Below are positions 5,341 to 43,055 of a stretch of DNA of 50,563 nucleotides, one piece after another. The position numbers were made by a program, and so were the translations under genes. This DNA comes from a bacterium (GTDB lineage Bacteria; Electryoneota; RPQS01), in assembly GCA_026394155.1 (NCBI GenBank), contig JAPKYT010000089.1, forward strand, positions 1 through 50,563. Reading direction: 5' to 3'. Below the pieces are notes generated by a model. That model did no database searches. It worked only from the letters and a program-made list of their open reading frames with translations, and was not told the DNA's origin. The first letter of the stretch is position 1. Every line of letters starts with the position of its first letter.

Positions 5341-7397
5341 CCAAGCCGCGCCAAATCGAACAGGCGATTTCCGCGCTGGTGCTGGTTGCCATCGCGATCC
5401 TCGCTTGGTTTCCACTCATCGTTCAGTCACAGGGACGGCCCTACACGGCGTGGATGCTCGTGCCGATGTCTCTGGCGATGGTTTTGTTCGCGTTGGCGCT
5501 GGTCTATGATGTTGCCGAGCGGATGCTGGGACCGGGCCGCGGGATTTATGCCGTGGCGGTCTTTTGCACGGTGCCCGCGGTGGGTCTTGCGGCCTGTGAT
5601 CCGGCGGCGATGCAACTGGCCGCTTTTCTTGTTTTCAACGCCGCAGCCGTCTTTCTCGCGTCGCGCGCCCGCGGCGAAGAGCGCCCGTTCTTCCTCGGAA
5701 TGCTCGCGCTCTTGCTGCTCGTGGCCGGCGCGTTCTTCGGTTTTCCCGCGGCCGCAATGGTCTTCGCCTTTGCGATTGTGCTGGCCGTGGGTGAAATCAG
5801 CAAACGACCGGCGCGGGTGCTGCTGGGAATGTGTCTCCTGCTGCTCTATGTGGTGAGCGCGAATATTCGCTTCCTGATAGACCTTCCGCTTCCGCACTTC
5901 ACTCTCGGCAGATCCGCCTTTACACTCACTTCTGTGCTCTCGCTTCTGCCCTGGACTCTGTGGATCATCCCCGCGCTGCTTCGGTTCCGCTCTCGCTCTT
6001 CGGCTGAGCATCGTTGGCGGACGGCGGCTGCGCTGTTCGCGCTTGTCGCACCACCGTTCGCCGTCTTGTTCGGGGATAACGTAACGGCGGTCTCCGTTGC
6101 GTTCGCACCCGCGCTCGCTTTGCTGGCGACTCATCTCTTGCACGAGGATCTCGCCGCCGGTCGCGCCGCGCGGAACATTCCCGCTGTGACGTTGCCCGCA
6201 TTGCTGACGGCGCTCGCCTTGCTTACCGTTGCGTTCTTCTCGGTAATCGGTGTGCTCGCGAAACCTGTCATGGGAGCGACTCACATCGCCGCCGGAGTGA
6301 TTCTTGCCGTGGCCCTCGCATGGGCGGCCTTTTCCCGCCTCCATCGCTGGGCATTTTTTCTGCTGGCCATCGCGGGCGTCTATTTCGGATTGCTGGTCAC
6401 GCAGCGCGAACCGCTTTTTCCGTCGGTGGAAACGGCGGCCGCGCCAGTCCCGCTGTCATTCTTCTTGCTAATTCTTGCCGCCAGTCTGGCCGCCGCCGTC
6501 ACCGCCACGCTGGTCAAGCGAAAACTCTTTTCAGGTGAGGTGAAAGAGCCGGACGAAGCGCGCCTTTTTGCGGCGGACAGCTTCCGCAGTTTCGCGGGGT
6601 CCGAGCCGCGTCCGGTCTCGCTGGCCGATCTGCACGCGCCGTTTTCCTTCGCCGTTTTCGGTGATGTAGCAGGGGCCGAATCGCTTTTTGCCACGCGCCG
6701 GGGCGGCTTTTTCATGTTTCGCGCGCTGGCCCGCACACTGAACGAGTCTTCTCCGACTTTCGCCGTGTCGCTAGGAGATCTGGCGCGCGAGGCGTCGCCC
6801 TTCGCCTATCGGCGGCTGCGCCGTTTGCTGCGCAAGATTTCCGCGCCGCTCACCGTCACGCCCGGAAATCACGACGTGTTCCTCGGCGACACGTACGACG
6901 CGGCGCATTTTCACCGGCTGTTCGGAGCGGATAACGGCGCGTTCGACGCCGGCCCGGTGCGTTTCGTGCTGCTCAACAACGCCTTCGGCTTCGTGAGCGA
7001 GGCCCAATTCGAGTGGCTGGATCGGGTCCTTTCCGAGGGGAGACCGTTCACTGTGGTTTTCTGCCACAAGCCCGTCTTCGAGCAGCGTTCTGACGTTTTC
7101 TACGCGATGGAAACGCGCGAGCACGCTCAAAGATTGCATGAACTCTTCTGCGCGCGCGGCGTGACGGCGGTCTTTTCCGGCCACATCCATTCGCTCTTGC
7201 ACGAACGGCGCGACGGCGTGACCTACATTATTTCCGGCGGCGGCGGTTCGAAACTCACGTCGGCCGATGACCGCTACCATTATTTGCTGGTGGCCGTGCG
7301 CGCGCAGGAAATTGTCGTGCGTGCGCTGCCGCTCGGCTGGAAGCGCTTGCCCGGCGTCTCGCCGCTGCTCGAATTGCATTTCGCACCCCGCCCATGA
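5337..7397 (+). CDS. Polytopic membrane protein fused to calcineurin-like metallophosphatase
   Basis: 686 residues. The first 400 or so hold about ten hydrophobic segments resembling the membrane portion of lipid-linked sugar transferases, though I see no catalytic acidic motif at the N-terminus. The C-terminal part is a full metallophosphoesterase: FGD near 440, SLGDL near 478, GNHD near 510, CHKPVF near 576 and SGHIHS near 615, which supply the usual Asp/His/Asn metal ligands. The fusion puts the phosphatase at the membrane. Operon position between GT4 and GT9 suggests dephosphorylation of a lipid-linked or LPS intermediate; this is inference. Overlapping starts and stops with both neighbours. 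Confidence 0.75.
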   Translation: MTKPRQIEQAISALVLVAIAILAWFPLIVQSQGRPYTAWMLVPMSLAMVLFALALVYDVAERMLGPGRGIYAVAVFCTVPAVGLAACDPAAMQLAAFLVFNAAAVFLASRARGEERPFFLGMLALLLLVAGAFFGFPAAAMVFAFAIVLAVGEISKRPARVLLGMCLLLLYVVSANIRFLIDLPLPHFTLGRSAFTLTSVLSLLPWTLWIIPALLRFRSRSSAEHRWRTAAALFALVAPPFAVLFGDNVTAVSVAFAPALALLATHLLHEDLAAGRAARNIPAVTLPALLTALALLTVAFFSVIGVLAKPVMGATHIAAGVILAVALAWAAFSRLHRWAFFLLAIAGVYFGLLVTQREPLFPSVETAAAPVPLSFFLLILAASLAAAVTATLVKRKLFSGEVKEPDEARLFAADSFRSFAGSEPRPVSLADLHAPFSFAVFGDVAGAESLFATRRGGFFMFRALARTLNESSPTFAVSLGDLAREASPFAYRRLRRLLRKISAPLTVTPGNHDVFLGDTYDAAHFHRLFGADNGAFDAGPVRFVLLNNAFGFVSEAQFEWLDRVLSEGRPFTVVFCHKPVFEQRSDVFYAMETREHAQRLHELFCARGVTAVFSGHIHSLLHERRDGVTYIISGGGGSKLTSADDRYHYLLVAVRAQEIVVRALPLGWKRLPGVSPLLELHFAPRP

Positions 7398-35737: not shown

Positions 35738-36086
35738 GCTGCAAACGGTCAAGGCTGCACCGACTCTCGGGCAGTTCCAATAGGCAGGAAAACCAAGTTC
35801 TTGCCGGACTACTGACCCGGTGGTTCACGCGGGAAACGGGCGCCGGGTCGAGAGGTGACAGTAGAGCAGCCAATGCGTACATCCGGGTCCTGTATGGCCC
35901 GGAAAAAAAGGGATCTTGGCCAAACTATATTAAGGCGACTTTCTGTGGGGGATAGGGTAGGGGAAAACAACCGCTTAGCAGATTCTCGGGGCGAAAGCCC
36001 AGTGTTCATAGGGTGAATGAAGTACAGCTAAAGGAGTCTGGCCAACGGGATTTTTTCAGGAAATCGTTGTGTCAAGGAGGATGATG
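35738..36086 (+). promoter_or_regulatory. Long structured 5' leader, possible regulatory RNA
   Basis: No reading frame is supported here. Hairpins: 35783-35805 (GGCAGGAA/TTCTTGCC), 35814-35849 (outer stem GACCCGG/CCGGGTC), about 35881-35901 (CCGGGTC/GGCCCGG), and 35989-36000 (GGGC-GAAA-GCCC, a GNRA tetraloop). Several purine-rich single-stranded stretches separate them. I compared it by eye with c-di-GMP, cobalamin, SAM and ydaO-type riboswitch cores, tmRNA and RNase P and found no match. Could be an uncharacterised riboswitch-like leader or a stand-alone RNA. Confidence 0.4.
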
Positions 36087-36977
36087 ATGAAGAATGTATT
36101 GGTTGTGGTGGTTTGCCTGTTGCTGGTCGCGTCCGCGTTCGCGCTGGAGTCCGGCCCGTCCAACAAGGTCGGCTATGTCAAGGTCACGATCCAGGCCAAC
36201 ACGCCGGGTACCACGACGTCCGTTCCCTTCGGATTGCCGTTCATCTTCTGGAGCGTTCCGACCGGGAACATTCCGAGCTATGGCGACACCACCAAGCTGC
36301 CCTCGATGATCGTGGGTACGCAGGCGAAGTGCAGCTCCAGTTCATCGGTCGCCGACAACATCGTGCGGCAGACGGGTGGTGCCTCGGCTTGGCGCAACTC
36401 GAATGTATCGTGCGCCTGGACAGGGAGCTTGCAGACCAGCGGAACCGGGCAGATGATTCCGGGTCATGCCTACTGGTATCGGAACCGCTCCGGCGTGCTG
36501 CGCTATTTGGTGCTCGCCGGGGAGGCGGATACCACGGCGGTCGGCATACCGTCGCGAGTCATCAATGCCCCTACCCCACCGGCCACCAGCGCGAACACAG
36601 CGTACTCGTGGCGGGAGCCACGGGCGGTGGCGCGTAACCAGCTCAACCTGCGGGCGCAAGGCTTCACCGGTGATATCTCGGCCTCCTCCAGCGATCAGGT
36701 GGCCGCGCAGACCGGTGGCACTTCGTGCTATTACCGCACGACCGATGCTACCTGGCAGGGCTCCCTGACCGCTCTGACCCCCGGGTGGGCCTACTGGATC
36801 CGTAATAGGCATCCGGCGGCGTGGACTTACACCTATCTTGCCAATGGGCAGCAGCTCACCATGCCGGAAGGCGGCGGCGATGCGGTCAAGCAGCCGGCGG
36901 CCCGCACCAGCGTGATCGAAAGGACGGCTCCGCCGGCCCAAAAGGTTCCATCCGGCACCGTCATCAACCGGAAATAA
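36087..36977 (+). CDS. Secreted protein with two internal repeats, unknown function
   Basis: 296 residues from ATG 36087; three ATGs follow AAGGAGG (36074-36080) and the third has the best spacing. Signal peptide MKNVLVVVVCLLLVASAFA. Two homologous units are visible: about 88-148 (ADNIVRQTGGASAWRN ... WTGSLQ ... PGHAYWYRNRSGVLRYLVLAGEAD) and about 202-257 (SDQVAAQTGGTSCYYR ... WQGSLTALTPGWAYWIRNRHP ... YLANGQQ). Each ends in an aromatic/Arg W-x-Y-W-x-RNR motif. The tail is Pro/Lys-rich. No T9SS domain. No family recognised. First gene after a strong promoter and long leader. Confidence 0.75.
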   Translation: MKNVLVVVVCLLLVASAFALESGPSNKVGYVKVTIQANTPGTTTSVPFGLPFIFWSVPTGNIPSYGDTTKLPSMIVGTQAKCSSSSSVADNIVRQTGGASAWRNSNVSCAWTGSLQTSGTGQMIPGHAYWYRNRSGVLRYLVLAGEADTTAVGIPSRVINAPTPPATSANTAYSWREPRAVARNQLNLRAQGFTGDISASSSDQVAAQTGGTSCYYRTTDATWQGSLTALTPGWAYWIRNRHPAAWTYTYLANGQQLTMPEGGGDAVKQPAARTSVIERTAPPAQKVPSGTVINRK

Positions 36978-37040: not shown

Positions 37041-38498
37041 ATGAAGGTCAAGTTGTTAGTTCTCGCGGTCGCCGTTCTGGCCATGGCTTCGCTCACCTTC
37101 GCGCAAGGTCTCGTCTTCTACAATGAGACTTGGGTGATGACCAAGAACTGCGATAGCACAGGCGGCCCCATTCCGTTGGACTGGCCGGTCTGGATCATGA
37201 ATGACTGTGATGCCGATGGTTATGGCACGTGCACTGCACCGGACGATGATCCCTTGGCCGTGCTGTGTGATGTGCCGTACGACTGTGAAACGGGACCGCA
37301 AGGCACGGTCAGTCGTCAGCAGTTCCCGATGGGCGAGGGGACCGGAACTGCGGGCACGTTCGCCACTGACCCCGCACTCATGGGGTCGGGCGGCGTAGCC
37401 ACCTGCCCGAAATTCTACCTCAAGGTGGAGTACGTCGAGACCACCTACGTGCCGCCGATTCACAACATTCACCACATCAGGTATCTCAGTAAAGTTTCCA
37501 CCATGCCGGCGGACATCGCTGACGTGGATCTGGCTGGAGCGGCTAACTGGACCCGGTGCTGTTGGGACAGCACGTGGTCCGATATCCAAGAATGCGTCCC
37601 GGACCTGTACACGCAGTTCAGCCCCATTCCCCCTCCGGGCGGTGACCAGCCGCTGAATTTCCATGACTGCGCGGCGGTCTGCATCAACCGTCCGCACGTG
37701 GTGAGCGTCGGCCCGGTGGCTGCCGCGAACCGCCTTCCTCACGGCTTCGTTCTCCCCGGCTGCGATCCGTTCAGCACGCCGTGCGATTCCGATTGTGTCC
37801 CGGCTGCCGGTTGGACGTTTGGCCCGCTGGTGTGGGTGTTCCGCACAGATGAGACCGGCTTGTGGTATGACGCCATCATCACCTCGCTGCCGGGCGCAAC
37901 CGACGGTTGCATCTGCATCGTTGTGGACTTCATCGAGGCGGTGGAGATCGGCGAAGTGGCCGTTGTTCCGCTGAGCAATTCGGTGAAGATCACGTGGCGG
38001 ACGCGGTCGGAGGACGCGAATTTGGATGGGTTCGCCATCTATCGTGACGGCAGCCGGCTCACAACCCTGGACGCGACCAACACGCCCAGCGGCGCTTCGT
38101 ATGTGTACGTGGACAACAACGTCGAGAACGGCCGCACGTACAACTACGATCTGCGCTCGGTGGACATCAACGGCGCGGAGAGCTCGTTCCACACGGCGAG
38201 TGTGACCCCGAGCTTCGAGAATGCGGCGGTGACCCAGTATGCGCTGCATCAGAACTACCCGAACCCGTTCAACCCGAGCACGAAGATTGCGTTCGACGTG
38301 GTCGGCACCGAACCCGTCACGGTGACGATCTACAATGCAACGGGTCAGTTGGTCAAGACGCTGCTCAATGGCGAGCAACGCACGAATCGTAGTTTCGTCA
38401 TGTTTGATTCCGGCAACCTCACGAGCGGTCTGTACTTCTACACGGTGAAGATCGGCAACGAGTTCACCGCCACCAAGAAGATGCTGCTGGTGAAGTAA
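37041..38498 (+). CDS. Secreted T9SS protein with N-terminal cluster-specific domain and FnIII
   Basis: 485 residues, signal peptide MKVKLLVLAVAVLAMASLTFAQ, AAGGAGAAGG ribosome site. The N-terminal domain (about 23-200) shares CDVPxxCETGPxxTVxxxQF ... G-x-FATDP with the gene at 38642 and is Cys-rich. A fibronectin III domain follows (about 300-392: VEIGEVAVVPLSNSVKITW ... AIYRDGS), then a T9SS sorting domain (LHQNYPNPFNPSTKIAFDVV ... SGLYFYTVKIG ... KMLLVK). Probably exported and attached to the cell surface. It belongs to a group of four paralogous domains surrounding two selenoprotein genes. Followed by a strong terminator. Confidence 0.85.
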   Translation: MKVKLLVLAVAVLAMASLTFAQGLVFYNETWVMTKNCDSTGGPIPLDWPVWIMNDCDADGYGTCTAPDDDPLAVLCDVPYDCETGPQGTVSRQQFPMGEGTGTAGTFATDPALMGSGGVATCPKFYLKVEYVETTYVPPIHNIHHIRYLSKVSTMPADIADVDLAGAANWTRCCWDSTWSDIQECVPDLYTQFSPIPPPGGDQPLNFHDCAAVCINRPHVVSVGPVAAANRLPHGFVLPGCDPFSTPCDSDCVPAAGWTFGPLVWVFRTDETGLWYDAIITSLPGATDGCICIVVDFIEAVEIGEVAVVPLSNSVKITWRTRSEDANLDGFAIYRDGSRLTTLDATNTPSGASYVYVDNNVENGRTYNYDLRSVDINGAESSFHTASVTPSFENAAVTQYALHQNYPNPFNPSTKIAFDVVGTEPVTVTIYNATGQLVKTLLNGEQRTNRSFVMFDSGNLTSGLYFYTVKIGNEFTATKKMLLVK

Positions 38499-38641: not shown

Positions 38642-39175
38642 ATGATTCGCCGTCTTGTTCTTGCCGCTGCCCTGCCTCTGATGCTGAGCGTTTCGGCTTG
38701 GGCTCAGGGGTTCACCGCGCAACTTATCTATGAGCCCGTGGACGGGTTGCCCTTGTACACCACCTGCATCGGAAGCACGCCGATTCCGGACGGCCGAACG
38801 ATCAAGATTTTCTGGGACGTGGATAGCGACGGGCCCGATCTGACCGATCCGCAACCCACCGTTTGCGACGTGCCGCCGGAGTGCGAAACGGGGCCGCCGA
38901 ATACGGTGAATTACAATCAGTTCTCGTTCAATGGCGTCGAAATGGGCTACGGCGCGGGTTACTTCGCGACGGATCCTCTTTTCCAGATGGTCGCCAACAT
39001 GCCCGATCCTCCGCGCTACTACCTGCGCGTTTATGAGTCCGACGGCGTGACTCTGCTCTGGACCAGCGCGGTCAAGGTGGTGGAGTCGGGCGTGCAGGAT
39101 ATCCATTTCCCGCGCAACGAGTGGACGTGCGGCACGGGGGGCCCGCAGTGTCTGGTGCGGGATGAGCATGAATGA
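38642..39175 (+). CDS. Secreted single-domain protein of the selenoprotein-cluster family
   Basis: 177 residues: signal peptide (LVLAAALPLMLSVSAWAQ) plus one domain. Landmarks are IPDGRTIKIFWDVDSDGPD near 62, CDVPPECETGPPNTVNYNQF near 79, GYFATDP, PPRYYLRVYESDG near 124 and GVQDIHFPRNEWTCG near 152. The same landmarks recur, with divergence, in the products at 37041, 41482 and 42228. The D-x-D-x-D-G segment could bind calcium. No catalytic motif is evident. Stand-alone unit ended by a strong terminator, directly before the selenoprotein genes. Confidence 0.8.
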   Translation: MIRRLVLAAALPLMLSVSAWAQGFTAQLIYEPVDGLPLYTTCIGSTPIPDGRTIKIFWDVDSDGPDLTDPQPTVCDVPPECETGPPNTVNYNQFSFNGVEMGYGAGYFATDPLFQMVANMPDPPRYYLRVYESDGVTLLWTSAVKVVESGVQDIHFPRNEWTCGTGGPQCLVRDEHE

Positions 39176-39460: not shown

Positions 39461-40483
39461 ATGCCAATGCAGAAACGTGCGACTATCTGGCTGCTGATCG
39501 CCCTCATGGCCGGCGCGGCCGGGCTATACAGCAGCTGCGGGCGGGGCAAGCCCTCCGGCAAGCTGCAAATCATGTACAGCGGCAACATCAAGGGCAACGT
39601 CAGCCCCTGCGGCTGACACGACAAAAAAGGCGGGGTGGCCCGGTGGGCTACCTTCATACATCGTCAGGGTGATCCGGACGCCGCATGGCTGGTGGTGGAC
39701 GCCGGCAATTATGTGGATCGCCAGGGCACGGGCGGATGCTCGAACAAATGCCAGTTCATGGTCACCAGCTACAAGGACCTCCACTATGACGTGCTGAACC
39801 TCGGCCGTCAGGAGGCGTGGATGGGCTACGAGACGCTGAGGGCCATGCTCGACACGATCAAGGGCACCCAGTTCGTTTCCGCCAATCTTCTCGATCTGAA
39901 AACCAAGAAGCCGTTGGCCAAGCCGTACGTCATCAAGAATTACGGCACGATGCGGGTGGCGGTGATCGGGCTTCTGAACGAGGGCGATTTCCCGAAGGGC
40001 ACGACGCTGCTCGACACGACCCGGCTGATGATCCAGCCTCACTTGCAGGCGGCCAAGAAGTACATCCCCGCGCTGGCGCGCAAGGTGGATGCGGTGGTGT
40101 TGATTTGCGAGCTGCCCTCGGCGGCGCTCGACACGCTGTTGAAAGTGGTGCCCGACATTGATCTGGTGATCTCCACCGGCGCGCTGCGCAGCGGCGAGAC
40201 TCCCACGATGGTGGGCAAGACGCGCATTGTGGGCAGTGGATCGTCGGGCTACGCCGGCCACTATGCGATGCTCGAGTTCAACCCGTCTTGGGGAGACAGC
40301 ATCGGCTTCCGCCAGTATCAGGATGCGCTGTCGGATACCTATGACGAGAAAGGCGAGTGGGCCGACCGTCAGGCCGCATTCAATGCCGCGCCCCCGCCCA
40401 GCCCCAAACCGGCGAGCACGGCGCCCAAGCCACTGAACGTAAAGACGCCGCCGCCGACAACCCGAAACTCCAAACAAGGCTGA
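39461..40483 (+). CDS. Predicted selenoprotein 1: Sec-containing UshA/5'-nucleotidase-like exported protein
   Basis: 340 residues if TGA 39614-39616 is read as selenocysteine (residue 52); otherwise a 51-residue fragment. ATG 39461 follows AAGGTGTGGG. N-terminus KRATIWLLIALMAGAAGLYSSCG is a signal peptide with a possible lipobox. Motif SGNIKGNVSPCG-U-HDKKGGVARWATFI matches the PCGC motif of UshA-related proteins with Sec in place of the last Cys. Downstream landmarks of the metallophosphatase fold are degenerate: VVDAGNYVD (GD changed to GN), LNLGRQEA (GNHE changed to GRQE), VSANLL, VAVIGLL, DLVIST. Frame and homology continue across the TGA to 40483. A hairpin follows the TGA. The paralogue is 31 bp downstream. 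Redox or metal-related role inferred; catalysis as a phosphatase looks unlikely. Confidence 0.88.
39614..39654 (+). promoter_or_regulatory. Predicted bacterial SECIS element 1 (UGA plus hairpin)
   Basis: TGA at 39614-39616. Stem GGTGGCCC (39634-39641) with GGGCTACC (39645-39652), apical loop GGT (39642-39644), extended outward by two G-T pairs. The first loop G is 28 nt after the T of TGA, within the range for bacterial SECIS hairpins, which carry a G in the first loop positions. Confidence 0.82.
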
Positions 40484-40514
40484 CGGCCGTCACTGAAGAG
40501 GATTTGGCAGGCGT

Positions 40515-41447
40515 ATGAAAGCGAAATTCGTACTGGCTCTGGTGCTCGCGTTGGTGTTGGGCTTCGGCTCGCTCTGGGCCGCCAACCCGAAGCACAAGGG
40601 CGCGGTCAAGGTTCCGGCGCGCATCTACGTGTCCGGCAACTTCGAGGGCGAACTCGAGCCCTGCGGGTGAAAGGCCAAGAAAGGCGGACTGGCCCGGAGG
40701 GCCGGTTTCTTGACCCAAACTCGCGCGGACACGGTGGCCAGTCTCACTGTGGAGGCCGGGAATTTTGCGCCCGCCAGCAAGAGCCGCGCGGACTCTCTCA
40801 AGGTGCGCACGCTGGCGGACTTTTACCGCACGTCCCACTATGATGCGGTGGGGCTTTCTTCGCGCGAGCTGTCTTTCGGCGTGGGCATGTGGAAGGAAGC
40901 GGCGGAGCACGGCATGCCGGTGCTGGCCGCTAATCTCTTCAAGGACAAGCGCGGCAAGAAGCCCGTCTTCAAGCCGTTCGTCATCAAGGACGATCACGGC
41001 AGCCGCTTCGGCGTCATCGGCTTCGTGTCCGAATCGGCGTGGCGCGCCCACGCCGACACCACCGACCGGATTTTCTTCCGCTCGCCGTTCACGCAGGCCA
41101 AGTTGATCCGCAAGGTGGCCAAGAAGTGCGATCATCTCACCGTGCTTGGCGAGTTCACCTCGCTTGAGGCGGATTCGCTCATCCGCCTGTTTCCCGACAT
41201 CAATGTGGTGGTGGCGTCGGGCGTGCGCGCGGATCAGGTTTCGCGGGTCGGCAATTCGCTGATCGTGGGTTCCTCCACGCGCGGCAACTACGCCACCTAT
41301 GTGGACTGGAAGTACACCCCCGCCGACACCGCGCTCACCTATGAGAACAAACAGCAAGTGCTCGACGAAAGCGTTCCCCTGGACACGACGGTCGTGCGGA
41401 TGCTGGGGCAAATGAACGACAAGATCAAGGCTCCGGCCGGTCACTGA
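40515..41447 (+). CDS. Predicted selenoprotein 2: Sec-containing UshA/5'-nucleotidase-like exported protein
   Basis: 310 residues with TGA 40668-40670 read as selenocysteine, again residue 52. ATG 40515 after GAAGAGGAT. Signal peptide FVLALVLALVLGFGSLWAA, no lipobox. Motif YVSGNFEGELEPCG-U-KAKKGGLARRAGF aligns position for position with selenoprotein 1 and keeps the canonical GGLARRA. Later landmarks: TVEAGNF, YDAVGLSSRELSFG, PVLAANLF, RFGVIGFVSES, INVVVASG, LIVGSSTRGNYATYVD. Metal ligands of true metallophosphatases are missing here as well. Without read-through only a 51-residue fragment is made. Co-directional with selenoprotein 1 and probably in one operon with the secreted protein at 41482. 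Confidence 0.88.
40668..40708 (+). promoter_or_regulatory. Predicted bacterial SECIS element 2 (UGA plus hairpin)
   Basis: TGA at 40668-40670. Stem ACTGGCCC (40688-40695) with GGGCCGGT (40699-40706), loop GGA (40696-40698), two outer G-T pairs. Loop distance from TGA is 28 nt, identical to element 1. Relative to element 1, two base pairs change on both sides (G-C to C-G and G-C to A-T). Confidence 0.82.
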
Positions 41448-41481: not shown

Positions 41482-42129
41482 GTGGGATCCCTGCGCTATC
41501 TTGCTATGCACTTTCTTGCGGCGCTATCGCTTCTGGCCATGCCGCCGGCGGTTCGCGCTCAGGAGAACCTGCCCGCCGACAGCCAGCAGGCGGGCAGCGA
41601 GTGGCGGAACATCATTCTCTATGACGTGGATGATTTTCCACCCGGATTTCCGGTGATTAATCCCTACAACGTTCTGGCGCTGATGATGACGCAGACCCCG
41701 ATCCCGGATCACACCGGAAACCCCCACGCGCACGGGCACCTGATTCAGGTGATCGTGGACGGCGGCAACTACTTTCAAGACCCGCCCAATCCTGACGGCA
41801 CGCCCGGCGGAGATGATTCGCTGGCCTACGGCAACTTCAACATGATTCTGCTGCGCGGAGAACAGGAACCGTGGGATCCCAAGGGCCGCAGCGGCAAATT
41901 CGTGTCGTGGAAATACTTCATCCCCTATTTGCCCGACCGGGCATATTATTTGCGGATCTGGGAAGGTGATAAGATCACCACGGCTCCCTACTATCAGGAT
42001 ACGGTCGAGTATTACGCCGAGGTGGACCGAGGCGGAGCCATGATCCGCTTCCATGAAGGCCCGCCCGTTGACGTGGACTGGAAGTTCGGTCCGTCCAAGC
42101 CGCGACCCAAGCCCGCTCCGCAGAAGTGA
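41482..42129 (+). CDS. Secreted protein of the selenoprotein-cluster family
   Basis: 215 residues from GTG 41482, 34 bp after selenoprotein 2, with GAGGAGG at 41464-41470; ATG 41506 is an alternative. Signal peptide (LAALSLLAMPPAVRAQ). Landmarks shared with the proteins at 38642 and 42228: TPIPD...GHLIQVIVDGGN, PDGTPGGDD, YYLRIWEGDK near 152 and YYQDTVEY. Ends in a Lys/Pro-rich tail. No sorting domain, so probably periplasmic or freely secreted. Likely co-transcribed with the selenoproteins. Confidence 0.75.
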   Translation: MGSLRYLAMHFLAALSLLAMPPAVRAQENLPADSQQAGSEWRNIILYDVDDFPPGFPVINPYNVLALMMTQTPIPDHTGNPHAHGHLIQVIVDGGNYFQDPPNPDGTPGGDDSLAYGNFNMILLRGEQEPWDPKGRSGKFVSWKYFIPYLPDRAYYLRIWEGDKITTAPYYQDTVEYYAEVDRGGAMIRFHEGPPVDVDWKFGPSKPRPKPAPQK

Positions 42130-42166
42130 TTCGTGATGCGATGAAACCTTCACGGAAAAAGCAGAG

Positions 42167-42245
42167 ACCCCCCCTATGCCCCCCCGCAAGCAGGGGGGGA
42201 CTTCAGTCTCCCTCCGTTCACGGGGGGATGAAAGGGGGGTTCTTT
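42167..42245. repeat. Two C/G-run hairpin repeats upstream of and into a coding region
   Basis: Copy 1 CCCCCC-GCAAGCA-GGGGGGG (about 42178-42199) and copy 2 CTCCCTCCGTTCACGGGGGG then ATGAAAGGGGGGTTC (about 42208-42240). The last arm contains the probable ATG of the following secreted protein. Confidence 0.85.
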
Positions 42246-43055
42246 GTGTGCGCGCTCGCCGTGCTGCTGATGCTCTCCGCTGCGCAGGCCGCCGAGTTTC
42301 GCGTGGAGGTCGCCTACTTTGATCTCCAAGGCGGTCCACTCACCATAGATGAGAACAGCCAAGCTCCTTTGCCTGACGGCTGTCTGGCGCAGGTGCTGCT
42401 TCAAGCCGACAGCGCCGGCAAGGCTTCCCGGCCGAAGGCGGAAGGGGTGGAGCAGACGGAGAGAAGTTTCCCCGTCGAGGCGCGACGGCAGATGCTTGGC
42501 GATTTTGCGCTGAACGGCGGAGCGCGCTTGCGCACGCCCGGGTTCTTTCTCAGCGACGCTCAGATCACCGGCCGCGAGTTGCCGCCGCGTCCGCTCTTCG
42601 TCCGCGTGTGGAACGCCGCCGATTCGGCACAGGCCAGCGGCTACTGGGATTCTCCGCTCTATGACGCGTTGCCGGGTTTTCAGCAGGTGAGTTTCCTGCG
42701 CGAGGAGTGGACGTATCATGCGCGGGAACGAGCCGCCGCCGCGCCCGATTTCGCAACCGCGGGATCGTCTGCCGGAGCCAGTCTGGCGGAGCGTCACGAG
42801 CTGCTCACGGCGGGTCCCAATCCGTTCAATTCCTCGGCGCGCATCTCATTCGTGGTGAAGGAGGCGGGCGGCGTGCGTCTGCAGGTGTTCGATCTGCAAG
42901 GGCGATTGACAGCGACTCTGGTGGACGGCCCGCTCACCGCCGGGTCGCATGATCTCGTCTTCGACGGTTCGCCCCTTCCCAGCGGTCTTTACTTCCTGTC
43001 GCTTGAACAGGAGGGTGCGGCGCCCGTGGTGCGCAAGCTCATCCTCATGCGCTGA
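42228..43055 (+). CDS. Secreted T9SS protein of the selenoprotein-cluster family
   Basis: 275 residues from ATG 42228, whose ribosome site (GGGGGG) and first codons (MKGGFF) come from a dispersed repeat; the frame is open back to a GTG at 42126 that overlaps the previous stop, and GTG 42246 is a third option. Signal peptide VCALAVLLMLSAAQA. Domain landmarks PLPDGCLAQVLLQADSAGK, LNGGARLRTPGFF, PPRPLFVRVWNAADS, YWDSPLY and FQQVSFLREEWT align with the 177-residue protein at 38642. T9SS domain: LTAGPNPFNSSARISFVV ... SGLYFLSLEQEG ... RKLILMR. Surface-anchored member of the cluster. Confidence 0.82.
   Translation: MKGGFFVCALAVLLMLSAAQAAEFRVEVAYFDLQGGPLTIDENSQAPLPDGCLAQVLLQADSAGKASRPKAEGVEQTERSFPVEARRQMLGDFALNGGARLRTPGFFLSDAQITGRELPPRPLFVRVWNAADSAQASGYWDSPLYDALPGFQQVSFLREEWTYHARERAAAAPDFATAGSSAGASLAERHELLTAGPNPFNSSARISFVVKEAGGVRLQVFDLQGRLTATLVDGPLTAGSHDLVFDGSPLPSGLYFLSLEQEGAAPVVRKLILMR

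Follow-up and report, generated by a model that had tools for sequence, protein, structure and literature searches.

Known UshA-like selenoproteins and the locus under study

Selenoproteins related to UshA (COG0737) and carrying a CxU motif were reported from ocean metagenomes in 2008 (PMC2398784), and the UshA-like CxU family also figures in the selenoprotein lists of PMC9312934 and PMC13188914, although no characterised CxU member was found in the literature. Two curated models describe proteins of this type: NCBIfam NF041198 (UshA_like_PCGU, 'UshA-like (seleno)protein'), defined by a PCG-[UC] motif in an UshA-like domain, and NF049981 (UshA_like_Sel_2, 'UshA-like (seleno)protein family 2'), which is listed with a CxxU selenocysteine (Sec) motif (PMC13188914). 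The pair of genes considered here, termed A and B, lies in a stretch of 50,563 nucleotides from the metagenome-assembled genome (MAG) of an uncultured bacterium of the KSB1 group, hereafter the window, and is laid out as follows, with Sec as the predicted reading of codon 52.

39461..40483, + strand: gene A, predicted UshA-like selenoprotein of 340 residues counting Sec, Sec at codon 52; ATG at 39461, final TGA at 40481-40483; NF041198 132 bits, E 1.8e-38
39614..39616, + strand: in-frame UGA of gene A (putative Sec52); A orthologues keep the TGA, and homologues without it have Cys
40515..41447, + strand: gene B, predicted UshA-like selenoprotein with a signal peptide and 310 residues, Sec at codon 52; ATG at 40515, final TGA at 41445-41447; NF041198 125 bits, E 2.3e-36
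40668..40670, + strand: in-frame UGA of gene B (putative Sec52), placed by direct reading and by its alignment column

Reading and translating the sequence confirmed what an earlier note on this DNA had described, namely two adjacent genes with one in-frame TGA each, at codon 52, in a shared PCG-U motif and downstream of signal-peptide-like N-termini; the motif itself, SGN-x2-G-x3-PCG-U-x2-KKGG-x-AR, differs from the earlier spelling only in the spacing between U and KKGG, which is two residues and not three. Apart from the TGA at codon 52, neither gene contains an internal stop. A is probably a lipoprotein, judging by the canonical lipoboxes of its orthologues (e.g., LVGC, LTGC, and VQGC), and B is probably a soluble exported protein; A has, in addition, a CSNKC motif. 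Of 24 ORFs checked in the window, 14 terminate with TGA, among them A and B, and the rest with TAA or TAG, so the genetic code of the window is standard, as had been supposed.

The link to UshA proposed in the earlier note also holds, NF041198 being the nearest family, whereas the novelty it implied was overstated, UshA-like selenoproteins with CxU having been described by 2008 at the latest. A and B share with NF041198 the domain and the PCG-U/C motif, but their scores lie below its curated cut-off of 275 bits, they cover only positions 20-293 of the 519 in the model, and they form a conserved tandem pair. The other UGA homologues tested reach 97-174 bits against the same model in open frames of about 340-370 codons, indicating that short forms are widespread. 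With NF049981, the likeness is restricted to a related N-terminal stretch (35.5 and 39.6 bits for A and B, far under the cut-off of 140), and the CxxU motif of that family differs from the CG-U of A and B. Neither protein has a match in Pfam. The family is, in short, already known, and A and B represent a shorter variant of it, duplicated in tandem, rather than a new kind. A standard gene caller would cut such proteins at codon 52, and the curated models score A and B below their cut-offs. PCG-U genes also form a tandem pair in a Candidatus Eisenbacteria MAG (L133:6797 and 7939), and tandem pairs of this type may, given that case, have arisen more than once.

Conservation of the UGA codon and its cysteine counterparts

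When 61 genomes were searched with B as the query, homologues with a single TGA were recovered from a genome of the same genus (G001, both genes) and from nine others of the same family and order (G003-G011). Aligned with one another, 21 genes have their TGA in a single shared column, and they represent 11 genomes, eight genera, and two families; besides A and B themselves, these are 19 genes from ten related genomes. Cys stands at the site in all the TGA-less homologues that cover it, with the exception of one (L055), in which the ordinary motif of nucleotidases is retained; a fragment that falls short of the site (G004_2A) was left out of this count. The Cys forms include a third family copy in the source genome itself (C65, L083) and three tandem copies of the A type (in G007, G008, and G009). 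A conserved in-frame UGA with Cys homologues at that position is what is seen in bacterial selenoproteins, in agreement with the proposal of the earlier note that Sec replaces Cys, and its argument that the coincidence of two TGAs was improbable by chance is borne out by the 21 genes. The possibility it had raised of a sequencing error in both genes is ruled out by the recurrence of the same TGA in independently assembled genomes.

In the tree, A and B fall into separate supported clades, each of which includes a sequence from the other family (G011), so the duplication predates the split of the two families, and the UGA has been retained in both paralogue clades since then. A and B are accordingly ancient tandem paralogues, both of them very probably exported selenoproteins. 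The three Cys copies of A are nested within the A clade and are therefore read as three Sec-to-Cys changes; these tandem arrays, with Sec copies beside Cys copies of the same clade, constitute natural experiments on the benefit of Sec over Cys. Downstream of the UGA, the dN/dS values against the sister genome G001 are 0.19 for A and 0.23 for B, rough figures given the high number of synonymous differences, yet clearly below 1, and these ratios indicate purifying selection on that part of the frame in both genes.

A SECIS-like hairpin downstream of both codons

Just 3' of each UGA, the sequence can fold into a hairpin with the core GCCC-GGN-GGGC, in identical register in the two genes and with its loop about 25 nt past the UGA; this placement is typical of a bacterial SECIS.

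39632..39654, + strand: SECIS-like hairpin in gene A with a stem of 10 bp and the apical loop GGT (39642-39644)
40686..40708, + strand: SECIS-like hairpin in gene B with a stem of 10 bp and the apical loop GGA (40696-40698)

Covariation was assessed across 31 UGA genes aligned without gaps, a set in which ten genes are from Eisenbacteria, Desulfobacterota, Chloroflexi, and one unassigned proteobacterium; the distant genes came from a DNA pattern containing the TGA, which retrieved 70 stretches, mostly unrelated, that were sorted by tblastn. Across this set, 92.7% of the pair cells pair, with one sequence (L157) having a broken closing pair, and the covariation score is 0.276 compared with 0.185 in shuffles, none of the 500 shuffles being as high. 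When the register is shifted, pairing falls to 30-55%, and RNAalifold recovers the inner six pairs unaided. The SECIS-type hairpin just 3' of the UGA is thus both covarying and register-specific. Taken gene by gene, the hairpins are unexceptional against synonymous shuffles (P 0.01-0.26), folding energy per gene being a weak test, and the claim for the hairpin therefore rests on the whole set. No in-register stem was found in the Cys homologues except for the Cys copy of A in G008 (L076:5804-6570); this copy keeps the hairpin, its frame seems broken near 6289-6316, and it is possibly a relic of a recent Sec-to-Cys change.

Selenocysteine machinery in the source genome and its relatives

The source MAG comprises 2.41 Mb in 155 contigs and is 88% complete. 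The search for selA, selB, selC, and selD that the earlier note had proposed gave a divided result. selD is present, with a UGA of its own at the classic site (HCAG-U-ASK) and a GGA-loop hairpin as in relatives; SelA was not found in the MAG, nothing scored above the cut-off for SelB, and the RF01852 search of the MAG for tRNA-SeC returned only ordinary Ser, Leu, Gly, and His tRNAs. In the same-genus genome G001, all four sel genes are present, selC being a tRNA-SeC gene with the anticodon tca, and selA, selB, and selC lie in the order plsX-fabH-fabD-fabG-fabF-rnc-...-selA-nfeD-slipin-...-rluB-selB-...-folD-...-mpl-selC-...-leuS (gene names other than those of the sel genes were read from translations), and in relatives these three genes sit in one region. 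In the source genome, a composite search yielded no plsX, rnc, slipin, rluB, or folD, and for mpl only distant paralogues, while leuS was found with 86% identity over the stretch searched, on a contig of 3,982 bases that stops within that gene, at the end facing the expected position of selC. Since plsX, rnc, rluB, folD, and mpl, the neighbours of the sel genes in G001, are absent as well, the simplest reading is that one unassembled block accounts for the missing selA, selB, and selC together with their neighbours.

A tRNA-SeC with the anticodon tca was confirmed in six relatives (L066, L067, L068, L069, L070, and L071). selC had been reported absent from KSB1 genomes in a survey of that group (PMC9012183), and the published impression of a selC-less KSB1 is corrected by these six genes.

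Alternative explanations for the in-frame UGA

Taken together, the conservation of the UGA, the Cys homologues, the SECIS-like hairpin, the machinery of relatives, and the UGA-bearing selD of the source genome make it very probable, on comparative grounds, that codon 52 of A and B is read as Sec, and they would establish the use of Sec in exported proteins of a candidate phylum. The missing selA, selB, and selC speak for two of the competing readings, of which the recent loss of Sec decoding in the source species, leaving A, B, and selD as truncated relics, is improbable: near-universal genes are not lost jointly, so that an assembly gap is simpler when plsX, rnc, rluB, folD, and mpl, located among or beside the sel genes of G001, are missing too and the leuS contig breaks on the expected selC side, and the frames and hairpins of A, B, and selD are intact. 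The same absence could also suggest that the UGA specifies another amino acid, through code reassignment or a suppressor tRNA, but this reading deserves still less credence and was rejected, as ordinary genes of the window terminate with TGA, close relatives have selA, selB, and tRNA-SeC, a SECIS-like hairpin follows both UGAs, selD has its UGA at a classic Sec site, and homologues have Cys at the residue. The draft state of the MAG, with its many contigs and incomplete content, would in turn be compatible with A and B being pseudogenes or with the TGAs being sequencing or assembly errors; this is the least credible explanation, with hardly any probability left to it, and was likewise rejected, because the same TGA is conserved in independently assembled genomes of eight genera, and A and B are otherwise undisrupted, with a dN/dS of about 0.2 after the TGA. 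Under Sec decoding, SelB would recognise the hairpin just 3' of the UGA and deliver Sec-tRNA(Sec), so that codon 52 would be decoded as Sec and the full-length protein made; without selenium, the ribosome would be expected to stop at codon 52.

Fold, metal-ligand motifs, and possible function

The AlphaFold2 models have a pLDDT of 90 for B and of 82.5 for A, in which residues 50-54 are poorly predicted. The best PDB matches of the B model in Foldseek are 5'-nucleotidases (E 1e-18, TM-score 0.7-0.8 on the query), and the predicted model thus has the metallophosphatase fold that forms the N-terminal part of UshA, CD73, and E. coli c4898 (PDB 1ush, 6ye2, and 3ivd). A and B differ from these enzymes in lacking the C-terminal domain and the motifs for the dinuclear metal (DxH, GD, GNHE, H, and GHxH), with a CG-U motif instead: the position of the DxH motif reads SGN-x2-G, the second Asp motif has become AGN, and GNHE and GHAH of 3ivd correspond to GRQE/SSRE and TGAL/SGVR in A/B. 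The SoxB thiosulfohydrolase model (TIGR04486) gives a weak match with A (47 bits), far below its cut-off of 550, limited to the first domain and with the metal motifs changed. The C50/U52 pair and the KGG that follows are invariant.

The changed ligand motifs, together with the invariance of C50/U52 and KGG, suggest an inactive phosphatase scaffold that carries a Cys-Gly-Sec redox centre, that is, the N-terminal metallophosphatase fold of UshA and SoxB relatives would have lost the residues for its two metals, and the conserved centre would instead be the pair Cys50-Gly-Sec52. A redox or metal-handling function, as suggested in the earlier note, is conjectural. The likeliest role, put forward tentatively, is that C50/U52 form a selenenylsulfide redox centre acting, in the cell envelope, on the thiols or disulfides of exported proteins, although C50-G-U52 could also be a metal binder. 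More doubtful is the complete scenario in which a dead metallophosphatase domain became an extracytoplasmic selenol redox protein, kept as a pair of one probable lipoprotein and one soluble protein in a conserved secretion-linked cluster. It is unlikely, but to a lesser degree than any of the alternatives to Sec decoding, that these are selenoproteins in which CG-U serves as a metal or substrate ligand of a phosphatase- or SoxB-like hydrolase that is still active, with no redox pair. The 5'-nucleotidase fold, the weak SoxB match of A and its additional CSNKC motif, and the retention of some ligands (LDSGD and VGHG in L151) by distant Desulfobacterota UGA homologues are in favor of such a hydrolase; against it, every recognisable dinuclear-metal motif is changed in A and B, and thiol chemistry would fit the five invariant Cys of their immediate neighbour Z1.

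Gene neighbourhood

The pair belongs to a cluster with the conserved order Z1-A-(A copies)-B-Z2-Z3, whose other members in the window are the following.

38642..39175, + strand: Z1, secreted, five invariant Cys, no known family; conserved immediate upstream neighbour of A
41482..42129, + strand: Z2, secreted, no known family; conserved immediate downstream neighbour of B
42126..43055, + strand: Z3, secreted, C-terminal T9SS-type sorting domain (PF18962); conserved in the same cluster

The five invariant Cys of Z1 would be compatible with thiol chemistry. A T9SS-type C-terminal sorting domain (PF18962) is likewise found in an upstream protein (37041-38498), and a secreted protein of no assigned family (36069-36977) recurs in several relatives, encoded between ssb and the cluster.
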